From Gracilimonas tropica DSM 19535 (lineage in GTDB: Bacteria; Bacteroidota; Rhodothermia; Balneolales; Balneolaceae): DNA of 64,000 nucleotides. The notes beneath the pieces are model-generated. The model searched no databases, was not told the DNA's origin, and saw only the letters and a list, made by a program, of their open reading frames with translations. Location: contig NZ_AQXG01000003.1 of assembly GCF_000375425.1 (NCBI RefSeq), forward strand, positions 248,001-312,000, written 5' to 3'. A program made the position numbers and the translations under genes. Shown one piece after another: positions 1,345-52,050 of the stretch. Positions within the stretch are counted from its first letter, which is position 1, and every line of letters starts with the position of its first letter.

Positions 1345-3795
1345 ATGATCGTATTAAAATTTGGTGGAAGTTCTGTAGCCACTTCAAAGAATCTGAACAA
1401 AGTACAGGAGATCGTTAAAGATCATTCAAAAAATGAAAAGCTGGCTGTTGTTGTATCTGCCCTGGGGGGCGTTACTAATACACTTCAGGATTGTGCAAAG
1501 CTCGCAGCTAATGGCGATGAATCCTATAAAGATCAGTTAGCCGAAATAGAAAAAAGGCACCTTGAAATTTGCAATGAACTCTTTTCGGTAAAAAACCGCA
1601 GTGAAGTTCTTACTTCAACAAAATTACTCTTAAACGACCTGGAAGATATTTGCCGGGGCGTGTATCTCATTCGAGAACTTTCCCCAAGGTCGCTTGACCA
1701 CATTTTGAGTTATGGTGAATTACTTTCCTCAGCTATAATTGCCAAATATTTTGCATCCACCGGTTTGGATTCCGGCCTTATCGACTCAAAACATTTAGTT
1801 AAAACAGATAATCACTTTGGCCGCGCATCTGTTGATATCGCATTCACATTCAGCTCCATTCAAGAACATTTCAAGCAAGCCCCGCGGGTTGCAGTTTGTC
1901 CGGGTTTTGTGGCATCATCCAAAGAGAACGGACATGTCACTACACTTGGCCGAGGCGGATCAGATTATACCGCTGCGTTAATTGCTGCCGCATTGCAAGC
2001 CAGGGAGCTACAAATCTGGACCGATGTAAGTGGGATGATGACCGCAGACCCTCGCCTGGTTCCGAATGCTCATCCTATCAAGCATTTGTCGTATGAGGAA
2101 GCCATGGAACTTTCACATTTTGGAGCCAAGGTGATTTATCCGCCTACTATTCAGCCTGTTCTTGATGCTGATATTCCGGTTCACATCAAAAATACATTTG
2201 TCCCTCAAGAAAGCGGCACTTTGATCTCAAAAGAAGGCTCACCCAATGGAGATGTGGTTAAGGGTACCTCTTGCATTGAGGAGATCGCGCTTTGTACACT
2301 AACCGGCAGTGGGATGATTGCCGTGCCTAATATCTCCTATCGTTTGTTTCGTTCGCTCAGCCAGCAGCAAGTAAATGTGATCATGATCACCCAGGCATCC
2401 TCTGAGCATTCCATTACCGTTGGAATTTCACTGGATGATATTGAAAAGGCTCAAAAAGCTATCTCCAGGGAATTTGCCTACGAGATCGAGAATCACAAGA
2501 TCAACCCACTGGATGTAGAAACCGGACTTTCTATTGTAGCATTGGTCGGTTCACGCATGAAGAAGCAAGTTGGAGTGAGTGCTAAGTTATTTGATACACT
2601 GAGTCATAACGGAGTAAATGTAAGAGCCATAGCTCAGGGATCTACCGAATTGAATATTTCTGTGGTAATTGGCAAGAAGGATCTAAAAAAATCCCTGAAC
2701 AGTATCCATGAATCGTTCTTCCTGTCTGATCGCAAAAAATTAAACTTATTCATGATCGGTGTGGGGAATGTTGGGAAAGTGTTCATTGAGCAGATAAAAG
2801 CTCAGCAAGAATATTTAGCCAGGAAGCATAATTTGGACGTGTTTATTGGCGGCCTCGCTAATTCTCGCAAAATGCTTTTTAACGAGGAAGGCATTGACCT
2901 GGATTCCTGGCAAAGCCTGCTTGCTGATGAAGGCAAAAAAATGGATCACGACGCGTTTCTGAAAACTATGAAGGAGCTTAATCTGCGAAATACGGTATTT
3001 GTGGATTCAACTGCTTCAGCAGAAGTCGCAAAGCTATATCAAGATGTACTGGAAAGCAGTATTTCGGTAGTTACTCCAAATAAAATCGCTTGCTCCTCAG
3101 GCTATCAAACCTTCAAAAAACTGACAGATTCCGCTTTAAAATATAAATCCAAATTCTTGTATGAGACCAATGTTGGAGCCGGACTTCCGATCATTTCAAC
3201 CCTGAACGATCTGATAAAAAGTGGTGATCAGGTGCATAAAATTCAGGCCGTTCTTTCCGGTACTCTCAACTTCATCTTCAATAATTATGATGGGACCAAG
3301 AAATTCAGCGAAGTGGTGAAAGATGCCAAGGCGGCCGGATTTACCGAGCCCGATCCCCGAATCGATCTAGGCGGTGTGGATGTAATGCGCAAGATCCTGA
3401 TTCTGGCCCGTGTCAGTGGATATGAACTGGAATTGGATGAGATCACCAACAATGGATTTGTGCCTGAAGGGTGCATGGATACTGAATCCTTGGCTGATTT
3501 TTATGCCCAATTGGACGAGCATGAAGAAGTCTTTCTGAAACTTTATCAGAATGCTGAAGCTGAAGAAAAACGCCTCAAATATGTAGCCACTTTTGAAAAC
3601 GGTTCATCCCAAACCGGTTTGGAAGCTTTTGCCTCTGATCATCCTTTCTATAACTTGGGCGGGAAAGATAACATCGTACTGTTCTATACAAATCGTTACA
3701 GTGAGCAGCCGCTGGTGGTAAAAGGAGCCGGAGCCGGAGCGGCGGTAACAGCATCAGGTATTTTTGCAGATGTCATGAAAATTGCTTCTGCCTAA
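1345..3795 (+). CDS. thrA: Bifunctional aspartokinase / homoserine dehydrogenase
   Basis: This 816-residue fusion catalyses the first and third steps from aspartate to threonine. The aspartokinase half starts with KFGGSSV (residues 5-11) and carries the GRGGSDYTA loop near residue 204. Two ACT regulatory domains follow at roughly 310-460, and the homoserine dehydrogenase half opens with the NAD(P)-binding GVGNVG near residue 472 and includes TPNKIA and the DLGGVDVMRK stretch. Length matches ThrA/MetL fusions. thrB begins 17 bases downstream, and a Thr-rich leader lies upstream. Feedback inhibition by threonine through the ACT domains is expected from the family but not proven here. Confidence 0.93.
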   Translation: MIVLKFGGSSVATSKNLNKVQEIVKDHSKNEKLAVVVSALGGVTNTLQDCAKLAANGDESYKDQLAEIEKRHLEICNELFSVKNRSEVLTSTKLLLNDLEDICRGVYLIRELSPRSLDHILSYGELLSSAIIAKYFASTGLDSGLIDSKHLVKTDNHFGRASVDIAFTFSSIQEHFKQAPRVAVCPGFVASSKENGHVTTLGRGGSDYTAALIAAALQARELQIWTDVSGMMTADPRLVPNAHPIKHLSYEEAMELSHFGAKVIYPPTIQPVLDADIPVHIKNTFVPQESGTLISKEGSPNGDVVKGTSCIEEIALCTLTGSGMIAVPNISYRLFRSLSQQQVNVIMITQASSEHSITVGISLDDIEKAQKAISREFAYEIENHKINPLDVETGLSIVALVGSRMKKQVGVSAKLFDTLSHNGVNVRAIAQGSTELNISVVIGKKDLKKSLNSIHESFFLSDRKKLNLFMIGVGNVGKVFIEQIKAQQEYLARKHNLDVFIGGLANSRKMLFNEEGIDLDSWQSLLADEGKKMDHDAFLKTMKELNLRNTVFVDSTASAEVAKLYQDVLESSISVVTPNKIACSSGYQTFKKLTDSALKYKSKFLYETNVGAGLPIISTLNDLIKSGDQVHKIQAVLSGTLNFIFNNYDGTKKFSEVVKDAKAAGFTEPDPRIDLGGVDVMRKILILARVSGYELELDEITNNGFVPEGCMDTESLADFYAQLDEHEEVFLKLYQNAEAEEKRLKYVATFENGSSQTGLEAFASDHPFYNLGGKDNIVLFYTNRYSEQPLVVKGAGAGAAVTASGIFADVMKIASA

Positions 3796-25962: not shown

Positions 25963-26378
25963 GACTTAAAATTGGTTTTTAGGGAACACCAAACATACAA
26001 AGAACTACCCCAAAAGTTCATCCAATTCTTTGAAAAATTATGCCTTTTGTGTCTGCTTTTAAAACCACATTCTGCTGATCGGATGCGAAACGATGAATAA
26101 AGCTGTGAATTCCTATAAAACATCTGAATAGAACGCTGATTAAGCGGATTGAGCGAATGGTCACGAATTTTTGTTTTAATTTGGGATAGATCGAACGACC
26201 GAATTACGGATGGCGATTTTCCCTTCTCAACTCTGCCCAGATCTCCATCTGACCGATTACCGTTTGATGGATCGCTAAGGCTACGTTACTCGGACCCACC
26301 TATCGGTCAGACGGCTCAGAACCGGCAGACCGATACTCTTAAAGAAATATGCTTTTTGAAGGTCACATCACATTTAAA
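25963..26378. repeat. Gene-free region with a 10-bp inverted repeat
   Basis: This 416-base gap holds TCTGACCGAT (26248-26257) and its reverse complement ATCGGTCAGA (26302-26311), 44 bases apart, inside a stretch rich in CCGAT/ATCGG words. The TCTGAC/GTCAGA ends resemble the inverted-repeat elements near 32 kb and 50 kb, so it may be a decayed member. The small open frames here have no coding features. Confidence 0.35.
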
Positions 26379-29332: not shown

Positions 29333-29869
29333 TCATCCCGAAAATAATATAACGGGTATTAAACCATCGCCTCCCTCATAATTAATCGCTGAAGAAAGCC
29401 GCCAATGCACTGGATTCTTAACAAAACCGGCTTTTACAGGATTAAAATGTATGTATTCCATTTTTTGACGCATCATTTTTGAAGTAAATATTTGTTTGGG
29501 ATGCAGCCCTTCCTGCCAAACCTGATGTTCACTATCCCGATGATTTCTGAGCTTCTTTGACTTTAGTTCCTTCAATAAAACTTTACTTTTCTTTTCCAAT
29601 AAATAGTCAATGATGCTTCTTCCGGTAAATGATTTAAATGCCCGTAATTTTTCTGATAATGATTCATCCTCAGCAATAAGGTGCATGTGATTGGGCATAA
29701 TGACATATCCATATAATTTTACCCCATTCTCGTTTTGCAAATAACATAATGCATCCAGGACGATCTTCGTGATATTAGGATTCATAAACACCGGCAGACC
29801 TCCCACTATAGAGTTTGTAAGGAAATACGGATGGTAGTTTTCGTGAAATTTGTAGCGACTTCGTCCCAT
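29333..29869 (-). mobile_element. REP-associated tyrosine transposase (RAYT, IS200-like Y1)
   Basis: This 178-residue protein has the HUH motif in VIMPNHMHLIAE (His61, His63), the C-terminal helix with the candidate nucleophile Tyr139 in QKMEYIHFNPVKAGFV, and the GRSIIDYL region, all diagnostic of RAYT/Y1 enzymes. These nick single-stranded DNA at REP palindromes and are generally single-copy and domesticated. It is flanked by inverted REP copies and by 26-bp direct repeats, making a compact REPtron-like module about 0.8 kb long. The frame is intact, so activity is possible. Confidence 0.85.
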
Positions 29870-46301: not shown

Positions 46302-47258
46302 CTAAAACAACTCTTTGGCTACCTCATACACCGATGCTGATTTCCCCATCGAGTAATAGTGAAGACTTGGCACTCCAAATTCCATCAACTCTTTGGATTG
46401 TTGGATAGTCCATTCTATACCAACTTGACGAACCTGATCGCGATCTTTACATTTTTCCACTTCTTTAGTGAGCTCCATCGGCAGATCCACATGAAACAGC
46501 TGAGGCAAGATCGTGAGCTGCTTGGAGGAAGTGATAGGCTTTAAGCCCGGGACGATCGGGAGTGTAATACCATTATCACGACATTTCTGTACAAAATTAA
46601 AATACTGTTGATTGTCAAAAAACATTTGGGTGACGATATAATCCGCACCCTTCTGCTGCTTTAGCTTCAGATATTTGAGATCGGTTTCCATATTGGGAGC
46701 CGCAAAATGTTTCTCGGGATAACCGGCTACGCCAATGCAAAAATCCGAAGGTTTAGCGTTCTCCAATTCTTCATCCAGATAAATGCCCTTGTTCAAGTCC
46801 ACCACTTGCTCGATCAGCTCTGAAGCATAAGCATGCCCATCCGGCTCCGGAACAAATTCCCGCTCCGGTTTTCGGGTATCCCCCTGAATTAGTAACACAT
46901 TATCGATGCCCAGGAAATTGAGATCGATGAGAGCGTTTTCGGTATCTTCTTTAGAGAATCCTCCACAGATAATATGAGGCACTGCATCCACTTTGTAGTG
47001 GTTTTGAATAGCCGCACAAATACCAACAGTCCCGGGACGTTTACGCACCGTTTTCCGCTCCAAAAGCCCGTTATCATGCTTTTTGTACACATATTCTTCC
47101 CGGTGATAAGTCACATCCACAAAAGGCGGATTGAATTCCATCAGCGGATCCATATGATCAAAAAGGGATCGAATGTTTTGTCCTTTAAGCGGCGGAAGCA
47201 CCTCGAATGAAAACAAAGTGTTGCCATTCGCTTTCTTAATGTGTTCGGTTACTTTCAT
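46302..47258 (-). CDS. metF: Methylenetetrahydrofolate reductase MetF
   Basis: The 318-residue FAD-dependent TIM-barrel enzyme has [15 protein letters not shown] at the start (Glu proton donor region) and [19 protein letters not shown] and [12 protein letters not shown] motifs. It makes 5-methyl-THF for MetH. It overlaps metH2 by four bases (ATGA), putting folate reduction in the same transcript as the methyl acceptor enzyme and under the SAM riboswitch. Confidence 0.93.
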
Positions 47259-49954
47259 GATGAATAAGGGTCGTAGTCTAAATTAGGAGAAAGCCATTTC
47301 TCGACTTCCTCTTTCGTGCATGATTTTCGTTGAGCATAATCAATCACCTGATCCTCGCCAATATTGCCAACCCGGAAATAGCGTGACTCCGGATGCGAAA
47401 AATAAAATCCGCTCACGGATGAGGCCGGGTACATCGCAAAAGATTCAGTGAGTTTGATCGATGTGTTCTTTTCTACCTCCAGCAGATCAAATAGAATGCG
47501 TTTTTCAGTGTGATCGGGACAGGCCGGATAACCCGGAGCGGGACGAATTCCGGAATATTTCTCAGCAATCAATTCTTCGTTGCTGAAACTTTCTTCATCG
47601 GAATAGCCCCAGAATTCCTTTCGGACTCGCTCATGCATGCGCTCCGCAAAAGCTTCCGCAAGTCGATCGGCCACGGCTTTCACTAATATGACGTTATAGT
47701 CATCGTTCTCTGATTCAAACCTTTCGATAAGTTTTTCGATACCAATTCCGGCCGTGACGGCAAAAAAGCCAATGTAGTCGGTAATGCCCACTTCATGAGG
47801 TGCGATATAATCACTTAAACTTGAATTTGGCTGCCCCGATCGCTTCTTCGTTTGTTGCCTTAAAAAATGAAATTTGGTCTTTATTTCGGATAGATCCGCT
47901 CCTTCAAATAGTTTTATATCATCTCCGTAAGCTGTTGCAGGATAAAACCCTATAACTGATTTAGCTTGCAATAAATCCTTCTCAATGATCTCATCCAGTA
48001 AAGCCTGCGCATCATCAAAAAGAGACTGCGCTTGCTTTCCAACTTCGTCATCCTCCAGGATATCCGGATATTTACCCGTCAGCATCCAAGTTCTGAAAAA
48101 CGGCGACCAGTCGATGTAATTTCTCAGTTCTGAGATCGGATAATCTTCAAATACCTTATTCCCAAGAAATGATGGCTTGGGCGGTTCATATCCTTCCCAC
48201 TCTATCTTTGTTTTATTTGATCTTGCTTCTTCAAAGGGCAACAATTCCTTCTTATTCTGCCGATTTTCATGCAGTTCCCGCAGTTCGGCATATTCCTTTT
48301 TGATCTCCGCTTTCACTGCTTCCCTTTTCTTCGGGTTGATGATATCACCGGCCATAGCAACCGCCCGGGAAGCATCCAGCACATGTACCACGGAGCTGTC
48401 ATATTCCGGGTCGATCTTCACAGCGGTGTGAAGTCTGGAGGTCGTGGCTCCACCGATCATGAGTGGCAGATCCATACCCCGCTTTTTCATCTCCCGTGCC
48501 ACAGTGATCATCTCATCCAGTGAGGGCGTTATCAAGCCACTGAGTCCGATGGCATCCACCTTATGCTTTTCGGCTTCATCCAGAATTTTATCGGCAGGAA
48601 CCATTACTCCAAGATCTATTACATGGTAATTGTTGCAGGCCAAAACTACGCTTACGATATTCTTTCCGATATCATGAACGTCGCCTTTCACAGTGGCCAG
48701 CAATACTTTAGGCTGATCACTTGTATCTTTATTTTGCTTCTTTTCTTCTTCTAAAAACGGAGTGAGATAGGCTACTGCCTGCTTCATCACCCGTGCACTT
48801 TTTACTACTTGGGGCAAGAACATCTTCCCGGCTCCAAACAGATCACCGACCACATTCATACCGTCCATCAGCGGACCTTCGATCACTTCCAGCGGACTCC
48901 CGATCTTCTGCCGGGCTTCCTCGGTATCTTCTTCCACAAACTCATTGATACCCTTAACCAGCGAATACTTCAAGCGCTCTTCCACCGATTTCTGCCGCCA
49001 CTCATCGTCCTGTTTCTTTTTGACGGATGAACCTTCACCTTTATACTCCTCAGCAATTTCCAGCAGTCGTTCGGTGGCATCATCCCTCTTATCAAATAAT
49101 ACATCCTCAACACGCTCAAGTAGATCTTCAGGAATATCATCGTACACTTCAAGCTGAGTCGGGTTCACAATTCCCATATCCATTCCATGCTCGATGGCGT
49201 GATACAAAAAGGCAGAGTGAATGGCTTCGCGAACGCGATTATTCCCCCGAAAGGAAAACGATACGTTACTCACTCCTCCGATCACATGTGCACCGGGTAG
49301 ATTTTCACGGATCCATTTGGCTGCCAAAAAGAAATCCAGTGCATTCCGCCGATGCTCTTCCATCCCCGTTGCCACCGGAAAAATGTTGGGATCGAGGATA
49401 ATATCAGAAGGATGAAAACCAGCTTCTTCAGTCAGCAGTTTGTAAGCTCTTCCGCAAATTTCTTTTCGTCGCGGAAGCGTGTCAGCCTGACCGTCTTCAT
49501 CAAAAGCCATGCAGATCACCGCAGCTCCAAACCGGCGAACGATCTTGGCTCGTCGCAGGAATTCCTCTTCCCCATCTTTTAAGCTAATTGAATTGACTAC
49601 GCCTTTGCCTTGCATACATTTAAGTCCGGCAAGGATCACTTCCCATTTCGAGGAATCTACCATGATCGGGATCTTAGCGATATCGGGATCTGAAGCAATG
49701 AGGTTGAGGAAATTGGTCATTTCTTCGGCACTGTCCAGCATGCCTTCGTCCATATTCACATCCAGGATCTGCGCCCCGCCCTGCACCTGATCCAGCGCGA
49801 TCTTCAACGCCTTGTCGTAATCTTTTTCTTTGATGGTATTCAGAAAGCGTTTGGAGCCGGTTACGTTGGTCCGCTCTCCCACATTCACAAAGTTCGAATC
49901 TTCGGTGATGATGAGAGGTTCAAGTCCGCTAAGCGTAAGAGGTAAAGTCTTCAT
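47255..49954 (-). CDS. metH: Methionine synthase, C-terminal modules (pterin, cobalamin, activation)
   Basis: The 899-residue protein lacks the homocysteine-binding module but has the others. The pterin-binding barrel is at about 1-300 ([22 protein letters not shown]). The B12-binding cap and Rossmann domain are at about 335-580, with the DVHDIGKNI cobalamin signature, where the axial His lies in DxHxxG. The SAM-binding activation domain is at about 610-899 ([15 protein letters not shown]). Together with the 335-residue upstream gene it reconstitutes a full-length MetH. The ATG follows directly after the TAA of the repeat-derived ORF. Confidence 0.93.
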
Positions 49955-50293
49955 TTAGTTACAACAATATTTAAAATTCCATCCCATCATCCGACGAATC
50001 CAGGTTCGTCTGACGATTTGTTGCCAAGGTCTGTGCCTTTTTGATTCATCGGACGACTTCTCGGCCTGTTCAGAATTTATGGCCTTAGCTTCAGTCGTCA
50101 GATGAAGCTCTTGGTTGTGTTTGCAATTCCAGCTCATCATCTGACGGCTCAAAGCCCCTCTGACGATTTGTTGCCACGAGCTTTGCCTTTCAAATCCATC
50201 AGACGACTCCTGCGCTTGATTCAACTTTCTTAACCTCACTTCAGTCGTCAGATGGAGAACGAAGTTTATTTCTTTTGGTTGGAAATTCATCAT
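49955..50293 (-). CDS. Repeat-derived reading frame between the two metH halves
   Basis: The 112-residue frame fills exactly the space between metH1 and metH2. Its ATG overlaps the metH1 stop by four bases (ATGATG) and its TAA abuts the metH2 ATG. It is not recognised as any family. It consists of two tandem 150-base units that stay in phase, so the peptide repeats (LHLTTE...WQQIVR...MMxWN twice). The unit DNA has inverted ends (CATCTGACG / CGTCAGATG) like a mobile palindromic element. It may be a translated linker or merely an open spacer. Confidence 0.4.
49985..50104. repeat. Palindrome-ended repeat unit (family B), unit a
   Basis: This 120-base unit begins CATCATCCGACGAATCC and ends TCAGTCGTCAGATG. 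It is similar across its length to unit b at 50135-50254, in the same orientation and with a 150-base period. The ends are imperfect inverted repeats, and the internal CGTCTGACGATTTGTTGCC is nearly shared. Confidence 0.75.
50135..50254. repeat. Palindrome-ended repeat unit (family B), unit b
   Basis: This unit repeats 49985-50104, with diverged centre and conserved ends. The inverted repeat CATCTGACG (50138-50146) / CGTCAGATG (50246-50254) bounds it. It preserves the reading frame of the 112-residue ORF although the two units have drifted in sequence. Confidence 0.75.
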
Positions 50294-51297
50294 ACCACCA
50301 TACCTTTACTTTTAACTTTTCGGGGGTCGTAATCTTTTGCCAGTTCAGCCATTTTGGTGATGTGTGCCGGCGTGGTGCCGCAACAACCGCCGAGGATATT
50401 CACCAGGCCATCTTCTAGGTATTCTTTTACCTGACTTCCCATTTCATCGGGTCCTTCATCATATTCCCCGAATTCATTCGGCAGTCCGGCATTGGGATAG
50501 GCGCTAATGAAAAATGGAGATCGATCGGATAGATTTTGCAAATATGGCTTGAGCTGCTTGGCTCCCAACGCGCAGTTGAATCCCACACTTAAAATCGGTG
50601 CATGAGAAATAGAGATCAAAAACGCCTCTACGGTCTGTCCGGAAAGAGTCCTGCCCGAGGCGTCCGTAATGGTCCCGGAAACCATGATCGGCAATTCTTC
50701 TCCCCGCTCTTCAAACAATTCCTGAATGGCGAATAGTGCGGCTTTGGCGTTTAGCGTATCGAAAATGGTTTCTACCAGCAGTACATCTGCACCGCCATCC
50801 ATCAGTCCGCGAGCCTGTTCTTTGTAGGCCTCCGCGAGTTCATCGAAGGTGACGGCGCGGTAGCCGGGATCGGTGACTTCCGGCGAGATCGAAGCCGTTT
50901 TATTTGTGGGTCCCATGGAACCGGCTACAAAGCGCGGTTTATCCGGGTTTTGCTGGGTGAATTTGTCCGTGGCTTTGCGTGCAATCTCGGCCGACTGCTT
51001 GTTCAATTCGTAGACAATGGATTCCAATCCATAATCAGCCTGAGCGATGCTCGTTCCGCTAAAGGTATTGGTCTCCACGATATCAGCTCCGGCTTCTAAA
51101 TATTCTTCATGAATAGCCTGAATGATATCGGGCCGGGTTAGGCTGAGCAGGTCGTTATTACCCTGTAGGTCGTCGGGATGATCCGTAAATCGCTCACCAC
51201 GAAAATCGGCTTCCTTAAGCTTATAGCGCTGAATCATGGTTCCCATGGCGCCATCAAGGATCAAAATGCGGTCTTGTAAAACGTCTTTAATGTTCAC
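50290..51297 (-). CDS. Homocysteine S-methyltransferase module of methionine synthase
   Basis: The 335-residue protein is the N-terminal Hcy-binding TIM barrel of MetH. It starts [17 protein letters not shown] and has the zinc ligands in [11 protein letters not shown] (Cys about 237) and [11 protein letters not shown] (two Cys near 306). In most bacteria it is fused to the pterin and B12 modules; here it is a separate polypeptide, as in many Bacteroidota. The start is GTG. It is the first gene after the SAM-I riboswitch, and its stop overlaps the repeat ORF by four bases. Confidence 0.9.
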
Positions 51298-51350
51298 TCT
51301 TTTCCGTTTGAGATTGGCTTATACAGAAAGAGTCGGTGAGGGATCAGCTC
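51298..51350 (-). promoter_or_regulatory. Candidate translational expression platform of the SAM riboswitch
   Basis: Between the aptamer and the GTG start, ACTCTTT (51327-51333) can pair with AAAGAGT (51296-51302, which includes the start codon), a 7-bp hairpin that would hide the start. A second ATAAGC (51317-51322) could compete with the aptamer P1 strand. No U-tract follows, so control of translation initiation is favoured over termination. Confidence 0.4.
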
Positions 51351-51480
51351 GCTTATCTTTCCCCGCACCTAAGTTGTTTTGTGCGGAGTGGGATTTGGCA
51401 CCTGTCCCGCCCATAAACTATTATGGCGGCATGGTTGCCAAGACGTCAAAGGGCCCATCCCTCGGTCTTTCTTTATAAGC
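51351..51480 (-). ncRNA. SAM-I riboswitch aptamer
   Basis: On the minus strand the S-box core is present: P1 GCTTAT (51480-51475) pairs with ATAAGC (51356-51351). GACCGAGGGATGGGCCC, then TTGGCAACC and GGTGCCAAATCC match the consensus. The terminal GAAAGATAAG closes the four-way junction. It precedes metH1-ORF-metH2-metF, which fits SAM repression of methionine synthesis. Confidence 0.93.
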
Positions 51481-51674
51481 ATTCAATAAATTCGATCGGA
51501 ATATAAAGCATGTAAGCACACAGAGCAACTCTTTTGAATTCCGAACACTCAATATTGAACAATGAATCTTGAACGGTTTTTGACAACGTCATTCCCGCAG
51601 AGGCTGCTTGGCGGCTAAGGCAGGGCGGGAAACTAATGGTTGGCCAAACTGAGCAACTTATATAAAACCCCAAT

Positions 51675-51826
51675 GTTGTCACTCCGAGCGGTAGATACTG
51701 ATTTGTGTTTAGAATGGTTTTCGCGAGGAGTCTCAAGAGCTAATTTAGCAAGATGTAGTAAACGTTGAGATCCCTCGTGATTGAAAGTAACTCCTTTACT
51801 ACTCACTACGCACTCGGAATGACAAC
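51675..51826. repeat. Inverted-repeat element of about 152 bp
   Basis: It is bounded by GTTGTCACTCCGAGCG (51675-51690) and the reverse-complementary GCACTCGGAATGACAAC (51810-51826). These form imperfect terminal repeats of about 16 bases. It contains CTCACTACGCACTCGGAATGAC, a wording common in intergenic repeats of Bacteroidota (by recollection, not checked). No coding sequence is seen. Confidence 0.55.
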
Positions 51827-52050
51827 TTTGGAGTTATTGGTTTGCGAATTCGGCCTTAGAGAAAAGAGCAGAATGAAGACTGCTTTAGCTTTTTTTCGAA
51901 GCCGCCCCGACTGCTCAGGGTTGGTTCTTTTGTCGGTACATAAGAATATGAATATGAAGCTGGAGCTTCCAAGACTGCATTACGAAGCCGGAGCTTCGTA
52001 ACGAGGTTAAGAAGTATGATTTGCTGGTCGTATTATCCCTGTTTGAAGTT

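Follow-up and report, generated by a model that had tools for sequence, protein, structure and literature searches.

Rickettsia palindromic elements (RPEs) are inserted in frame inside protein-coding genes. Some of them are CGTC-type REPs, according to the part of the source available to us (PMC3733652), and they resemble the elements described below in being palindromic repeats that can be read through; the ORF studied here, in contrast to RPEs, lies between genes and has its own start and stop codons. In mycobacteria, MIRU repeats carry an ORF that is coupled to the gene entered, for which termination-reinitiation has been proposed; as presented in the available sections of a review (PMC12548453), they form one family, insert at start codons and keep a spacing of -4. 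Overlapping gene pairs are also coupled by termination-reinitiation (PMC10666635 and PMC6728339, as far as the available extracts go). The extract of the former reports that in 3 E. coli pairs with a 38-nt gap reinitiation was cut by 80–90%, by 80–90%, and altogether, and that subunits of one complex are over-represented among gene pairs of this kind (PMC10666635). Judged by titles and the openings of abstracts, no published description of a comparable ORF in Gracilimonas or at metH was found.

The window analyzed here is a stretch of 64,000 nucleotides from Gracilimonas tropica DSM 19535, in which methionine synthase is encoded in 2 halves, metH1 and metH2, with a 112-codon ORF between them that we call the bridge. 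The relevant features are the following (R1 is the covariance model described further below):

51350..51481, minus strand: SAM-I riboswitch (RF00162) at the head of the operon, cmscan 69.7 bits (gathering threshold 44.4)
50290..51297, minus strand: metH1 (335 aa, GTG start), which supplies the homocysteine S-methyltransferase half of the enzyme, PF02574 with E 5.7e-103
49955..50293, minus strand: bridge ORF of 112 codons, running from the ATGA at the end of metH1 up to the metH2 start, where its TAA is followed by the ATG
50120..50257, minus strand: palindromic unit 1 (5' in the transcript), R1 match 50119–50216, 99.5 bits (R1 was built with unit 1); hairpin A arms 50243–50254 and 50197–50208, hairpin B arms about 50157–50168 and 50138–50149
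49970..50107, minus strand: palindromic unit 2, R1 match 49969–50066, 84.2 bits (R1 was built with unit 2); hairpin A arms 50093–50104 and 50047–50058, hairpin B arms about 50007–50018 and 49988–49999
47255..49954, minus strand: metH2 (899 aa), which supplies the pterin-binding and downstream half of the enzyme, PF00809 with E 6.1e-62 (first 300 aa)
46302..47258, minus strand: gene that we take to be metF-like, whose first 4 bases are shared with the end of metH2
26251..26350, plus strand: further element copy outside the bridge, R1 40.5 bits, E 3e-5

The bridge begins with the ATG at 50293, which forms a 4-base overlap (ATGA) with the metH1 stop codon at 50290–50292, and its TAA stop codon (49955–49957) abuts the metH2 ATG at 49954. 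An earlier note on this DNA had described a 112-codon frame that overlaps metH1 by 4 bases and ends at the metH2 start, and the coordinates 49955–50293 on the minus strand agree with it. The note had also seen 2 tandem palindromic units that stay open despite their divergence and the repeated peptides LHLTTE and WQQIVR; indeed, the units form a direct repeat of 138 nt, 72% identical and spaced by 150 nt, and each peptide occurs twice in the translation of the bridge. Both the start and the end of the bridge lie outside the repeat units. With up to 2 mismatches allowed, CATCTGACGACT is found 10 times in the window, and the bridge accounts for 8 of these matches; 3.2 are expected in the window and none of 100 shuffles reaches 10 or more. 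The predicted folding of the bridge strand is more stable than that of 100 of 100 shuffles (z -3.3), with z-scores of -1.8 and -2.8 for the units alone. The SAM-I riboswitch is also present in loci L058 and L059. Upstream of the riboswitch, at 51640–51850, the window contains a second, different palindromic repeat (GTCACTCCGAGCG ... CTCGGAATGACAAC), by eye of the TGTC/CGTC type.

The metH junction was then compared across the family, where matches were obtained in 78 of 93 genomes (79 places) and the junction between metH1 and metH2 was read at 30 loci; 41 of the other 49 places fall within frames longer than 1100 codons, as a one-piece MetH would. In other genera, the halves are separated by -4 to +2 nt at 19 of the 20 loci read, which is an arrangement that supports termination-reinitiation, and at the twentieth (L051) metH1 appears disrupted. 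In the genus of the window the gap is 63–370 nt at all 10 loci, in genomes that include Balneola sp. EAC52 (G005) and Gracilimonas amylolytica (G001); the eleventh genus genome (G008, 83% complete) gave no metH2 match. In each of the 10 genomes with the locus, an ORF of 19 to 123 codons connects the stop of metH1 with the start of metH2, without a stop codon or frameshift in any of the relatives read, which is what the earlier note would lead one to expect. Relative to the metH1 stop, these bridges start at -4 to +2 nt, with GTG in L029, TTG at +1 in L035 (ATG at +7) and TTG at -4 in L038 (ATG at -1) as the non-ATG starts, and they stop -12 to +4 nt from metH2 (-2 to +4 in 9 of the 10); one of the 10 stops forms a 4-base overlap. 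As judged by eye, the gap contains 1 or 2 element copies in L028, L029, L031, and L033, a row of related and other palindromes in L032, a sequence ending in another repeat-like stretch in L034–L036, and nothing that we recognized in L030 and L038. Because the genomes are related and the locus tree is only partly resolved, we count by eye 4 or 5 independent contents rather than 10. Other genera, and many Bacteroidota beyond the family, have a split metH that lacks this insert, which speaks against insertion of the repeat as the cause of the split; judged from these junctions, the split predates the insert. The earlier note had the repeat ORF spliced between the 2 halves of the enzyme, which fits its position but should not be taken as the origin of the split.

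Palindromic units of the same kind occur beyond the bridge. A BLAST search of the own genome at the DNA level (E<=0.001) revealed no second copy of the whole bridge, and a covariance model was therefore needed. Weak BLAST matches of one unit led to a common two-hairpin architecture, and the model, R1, was built from 8 copies, the metH units included, with only the pairs of hairpin B modeled. R1 matches (E<=0.1) were detected in all 11 genus genomes, 7 of them in the own genome (2 being the metH units), 24 in G002, 13 in G005, and at least 128 in G009, in which 150 of 586 candidates were scored; the family thus has members elsewhere in the genome, as the earlier note had supposed. In hairpin B, 5 of 10 pairs have changed on both sides, which is reached by 3 of 500 shuffles in an alignment fitted to that structure. 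In G005 (L248), a 202-aa Y1 transposase ORF with the motifs NHFH and YIHQNP 79 residues apart is flanked by related element copies on either side. This gene is the only flanked one among 37 Y1 places scanned (38 sequences, one place twice), and none is flanked in the own genome. Three of the 4 pairwise scores between the metH units and these flanking copies exceed all 300 shuffles and one does not, so that the likeness is modest. The canonical 5' GT[AG]G foot of REPs is absent, by eye, at the element hairpins. The available part of PMC6006769 describes a subclass of TnpA-REP proteins, 2.6, that is mostly found in Bacteroidetes and has atypical hairpins without this foot. The metH family agrees with REP/RAYT systems in its paired, imperfect and interspersed hairpins, and the YIHQNP of the G005 protein fits subclass 2.6; however, its HuH motif is NHFH and not the NH[LIV]H listed there for the subclass, and the metH units have diverged from the flanking copies (PMC6006769). 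Considering this modest likeness and the single flanked place among 37, we name the units REP-like members of an interspersed family, probably linked to a RAYT. They would thus be REP-like hairpin pairs within an intercistronic ORF, related to copies that flank a Y1 gene, rather than the counterparts of Rickettsia protein-coding elements seen by the earlier note. In G009 the element has expanded greatly, partly in tandem at a spacing of 145–148 nt (for example L219 12076–12506 and L226 15591–16853). In the window, a Y1 transposase match under the Pfam cut-off lies at 29582–29776 on the minus strand, about 3.3 kb from the element copy at 26251–26350.

To be counted as bridged, a gap had to contain an ORF starting at -4 to +8 and stopping at -12 to +5, limits that were set after seeing the 10 cases and applied alike to the controls. 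In 864 kb of the own genome this was found in 5 of 199 gaps of 60–400 nt, at least one of the 5 holding what is presumably a genuine small gene (PhhB-like). The figures for 397.5 kb of G009 (gaps of 60–700 nt) are 2 of 100 element-free gaps and none of the 5 element-bearing gaps besides metH. Altogether, 7 of 304 other co-directional gaps are bridged, some of the 304 lying outside operons. Outside the genus, 71 junctions were measurable among 78 metH loci, and none of the 17 gaps of at least 60 nt, 5 of them judged free of another gene, has a strict bridge, L130 being a near miss; L069, from outside the family, has a 32-nt gap with a 10-codon bridge. A comparison with G041 (1.2 Mb, one-way best hits) gave 16 shared co-directional pairs, 2 of which are tight in G041 and at least 40 nt apart here, and one of these 2, egtB-egtD, is bridged. 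One widened junction in G009 is unbridged. Junctions that are tight in the outgroup and wide in the genus of the window are therefore not all bridged. Among 8 genomes with egtB upstream, the egtB-egtD junction is bridged in one, which is also one of the 3 where the gap is at least 60 nt; this is the own genome (G000:C2:94146-94323, L328), with a 177-nt gap and a 55-codon bridging ORF that the 7 others do not have.

The comparison points, with somewhat better than even confidence on our part, to an intercistronic ORF that passes ribosomes on to metH2, for which the sequence would hardly matter and openness and tight ends would. Palindromic repeats and other sequence separate the metH halves by 63–370 nt in the genus of the window; a ribosome ending metH1 would reinitiate at the start codon of the bridge, translate it, stop at the metH2 start and reinitiate there, so that the 2 half-enzymes of methionine synthase would be kept in step. 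Coupling of this type would demand an open frame and tight contacts, because in the 3 E. coli pairs a gap of 38 nt abolished most or all reinitiation. Insertions that break the frame would be lost, the REP-like units, probably mobilized by a RAYT, would be tolerated because they can be read through, and the peptide would be a by-product. The earlier note had the frame preserving translational coupling; its preservation gains comparative support (all 10 genomes with the locus have it open, against 7 bridged cases among 304 other gaps), and the coupling itself is putative. By analogy, the bridge would work like a coupled insert of the MIRU type, although it is neither a MIRU nor an RPE, with MIRU as the nearer precedent: different repeats or plain sequence take the place of one family, within one operon and across a genus of another phylum. 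Coupled overlapping pairs share with it, in the extract available, the ATGA-type stop/start contacts and genes for parts of one enzyme (PMC10666635), but at metH the coupling, if real, would run via an intermediate ORF of changing sequence. The bridge would then be a natural experiment on a debated point, namely whether ribosomes can cross a long spacer after finishing a gene: if they did, or if metH2 started alone, no bridge would be needed, and yet every genus genome with the locus has one.

Translation start signals were considered as an argument for coupling. Pairing with the anti-Shine-Dalgarno (anti-SD) sequence is -3.1 to -7.2 kcal/mol at the bridge starts, and 0.8 to -2.9 kcal/mol at the metH2 starts in 9 of 10 genomes (-7.4 in L033). 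This contrast failed its control, since in the own genome 388 ORFs that begin with ATG (at least 200 aa, from the first 400 kb each of C1 and C2, upstream-most starts used) pair less than random sites do, with a median of -0.1 against -2.7 kcal/mol at 3000 such sites. The contrast is therefore uninformative and metH2 may start unaided; the weak pairing suggests that initiation in the own genome is mostly SD-independent. This bears on an alternative that we consider unlikely, in which ribosomes on the spacer would guard against Rho-dependent termination, or against decay of the mRNA, ahead of metH2, and metH2 would start alone from its A/T-rich upstream region, which does resemble the starts of a genome that generally lacks SD pairing. 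Protection of this kind would require an open frame just as much, but it has no need of a frame whose end lies so close to metH2 (-2 to +4 nt in 9 of the 10 genomes), and similar co-directional gaps would not be expected to be bridged as rarely as they are, even with some of them outside operons.

Somewhat less probable again is chance together with shared descent, by which stop-poor repeats would have landed in an ancestral short frame with no selection. When the ends of the gap in the window were kept and its inside was shuffled, a bridge arose in 0.95% of 2000 shuffles, and across the genomes in 0.3–37%, the 33–37% belonging to the 2 shortest bridges. Of 20 element copies elsewhere, 15 are open in at least one sense frame, indicating that the units are stop-poor by nature and that the shuffle test overstates the case; in only 4 of the 20, however, is the frame that matches the metH copies open (offset 1 from the first model position, a match that holds at the 5' end of the element because copies vary in length). 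These frames were read in 23 of 27 R1 matches, 2 partial and 2 opposite-strand overlapping ones being left out. The absence of nonsense changes (0 observed and 6.8 expected in 4 ungapped comparisons, or 3.8 expected without the unit-unit pair, which the earlier note had pointed out) restates that 10 of 10 bridges are open; since openness is part of the definition of a bridge, it adds no independent evidence. The genomes are related, but their gaps, all of them bridged, are filled differently in the element-bearing group, in L030, in L032, in L034–L036, and in L038, and chance alone is rejected or at least weakened by the backgrounds (5 of 199 gaps in the own genome; 2 of 100 and 0 of 5 in G009).

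A functional bridge peptide, or an N-terminal extension of MetH2 by readthrough, is highly improbable, for although the frame is open and peptide motifs are repeated, the peptide of the window has no Pfam match at E<=1, dN/dS over 7 comparisons is 0.41–1.62, the peptides differ between species, and the bridge shares the frame of metH2 in only 4 of 10 genomes, so that it is not simply an extension of, or fused to, MetH2. With dN/dS around 1 and peptides that are not conserved, what seems to be kept is the open frame with its contacts to the neighbors and not the peptide. In its strongest form, the reading as a ribosome-passing bridge would make this a gene without content, that is, a genus-wide open frame with fixed neighbor contacts that is rebuilt from different selfish palindromes and solely passes ribosomes between enzyme halves, a proposal for and against which we see the case as evenly balanced. 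If true, it would illustrate how an operon can accommodate selfish repeats, and it would caution against assuming that every conserved small ORF has a useful peptide as its product.

In other Bacteroidota, the metH1/metH2 junction contains an ORF of 110–120 codons in L067, L081, L090, L097, and L113, and also in L086, L098, and L104; in the first 5 it ends -13 to +4 nt from metH2. These ORFs resemble, on our assumption, four-helix-bundle (S23-type) proteins. The junction looks like an insertion hotspot. MetH2 of L105 has an in-frame insert of more than 100 residues, which resembles a DUF559-type endonuclease domain, and MetH2 proteins of Winogradskyella (L103, L107, and possibly L105) contain in-frame peptides that resemble translated repeats (CHAEPAEASQ and SSRAQSRDL).
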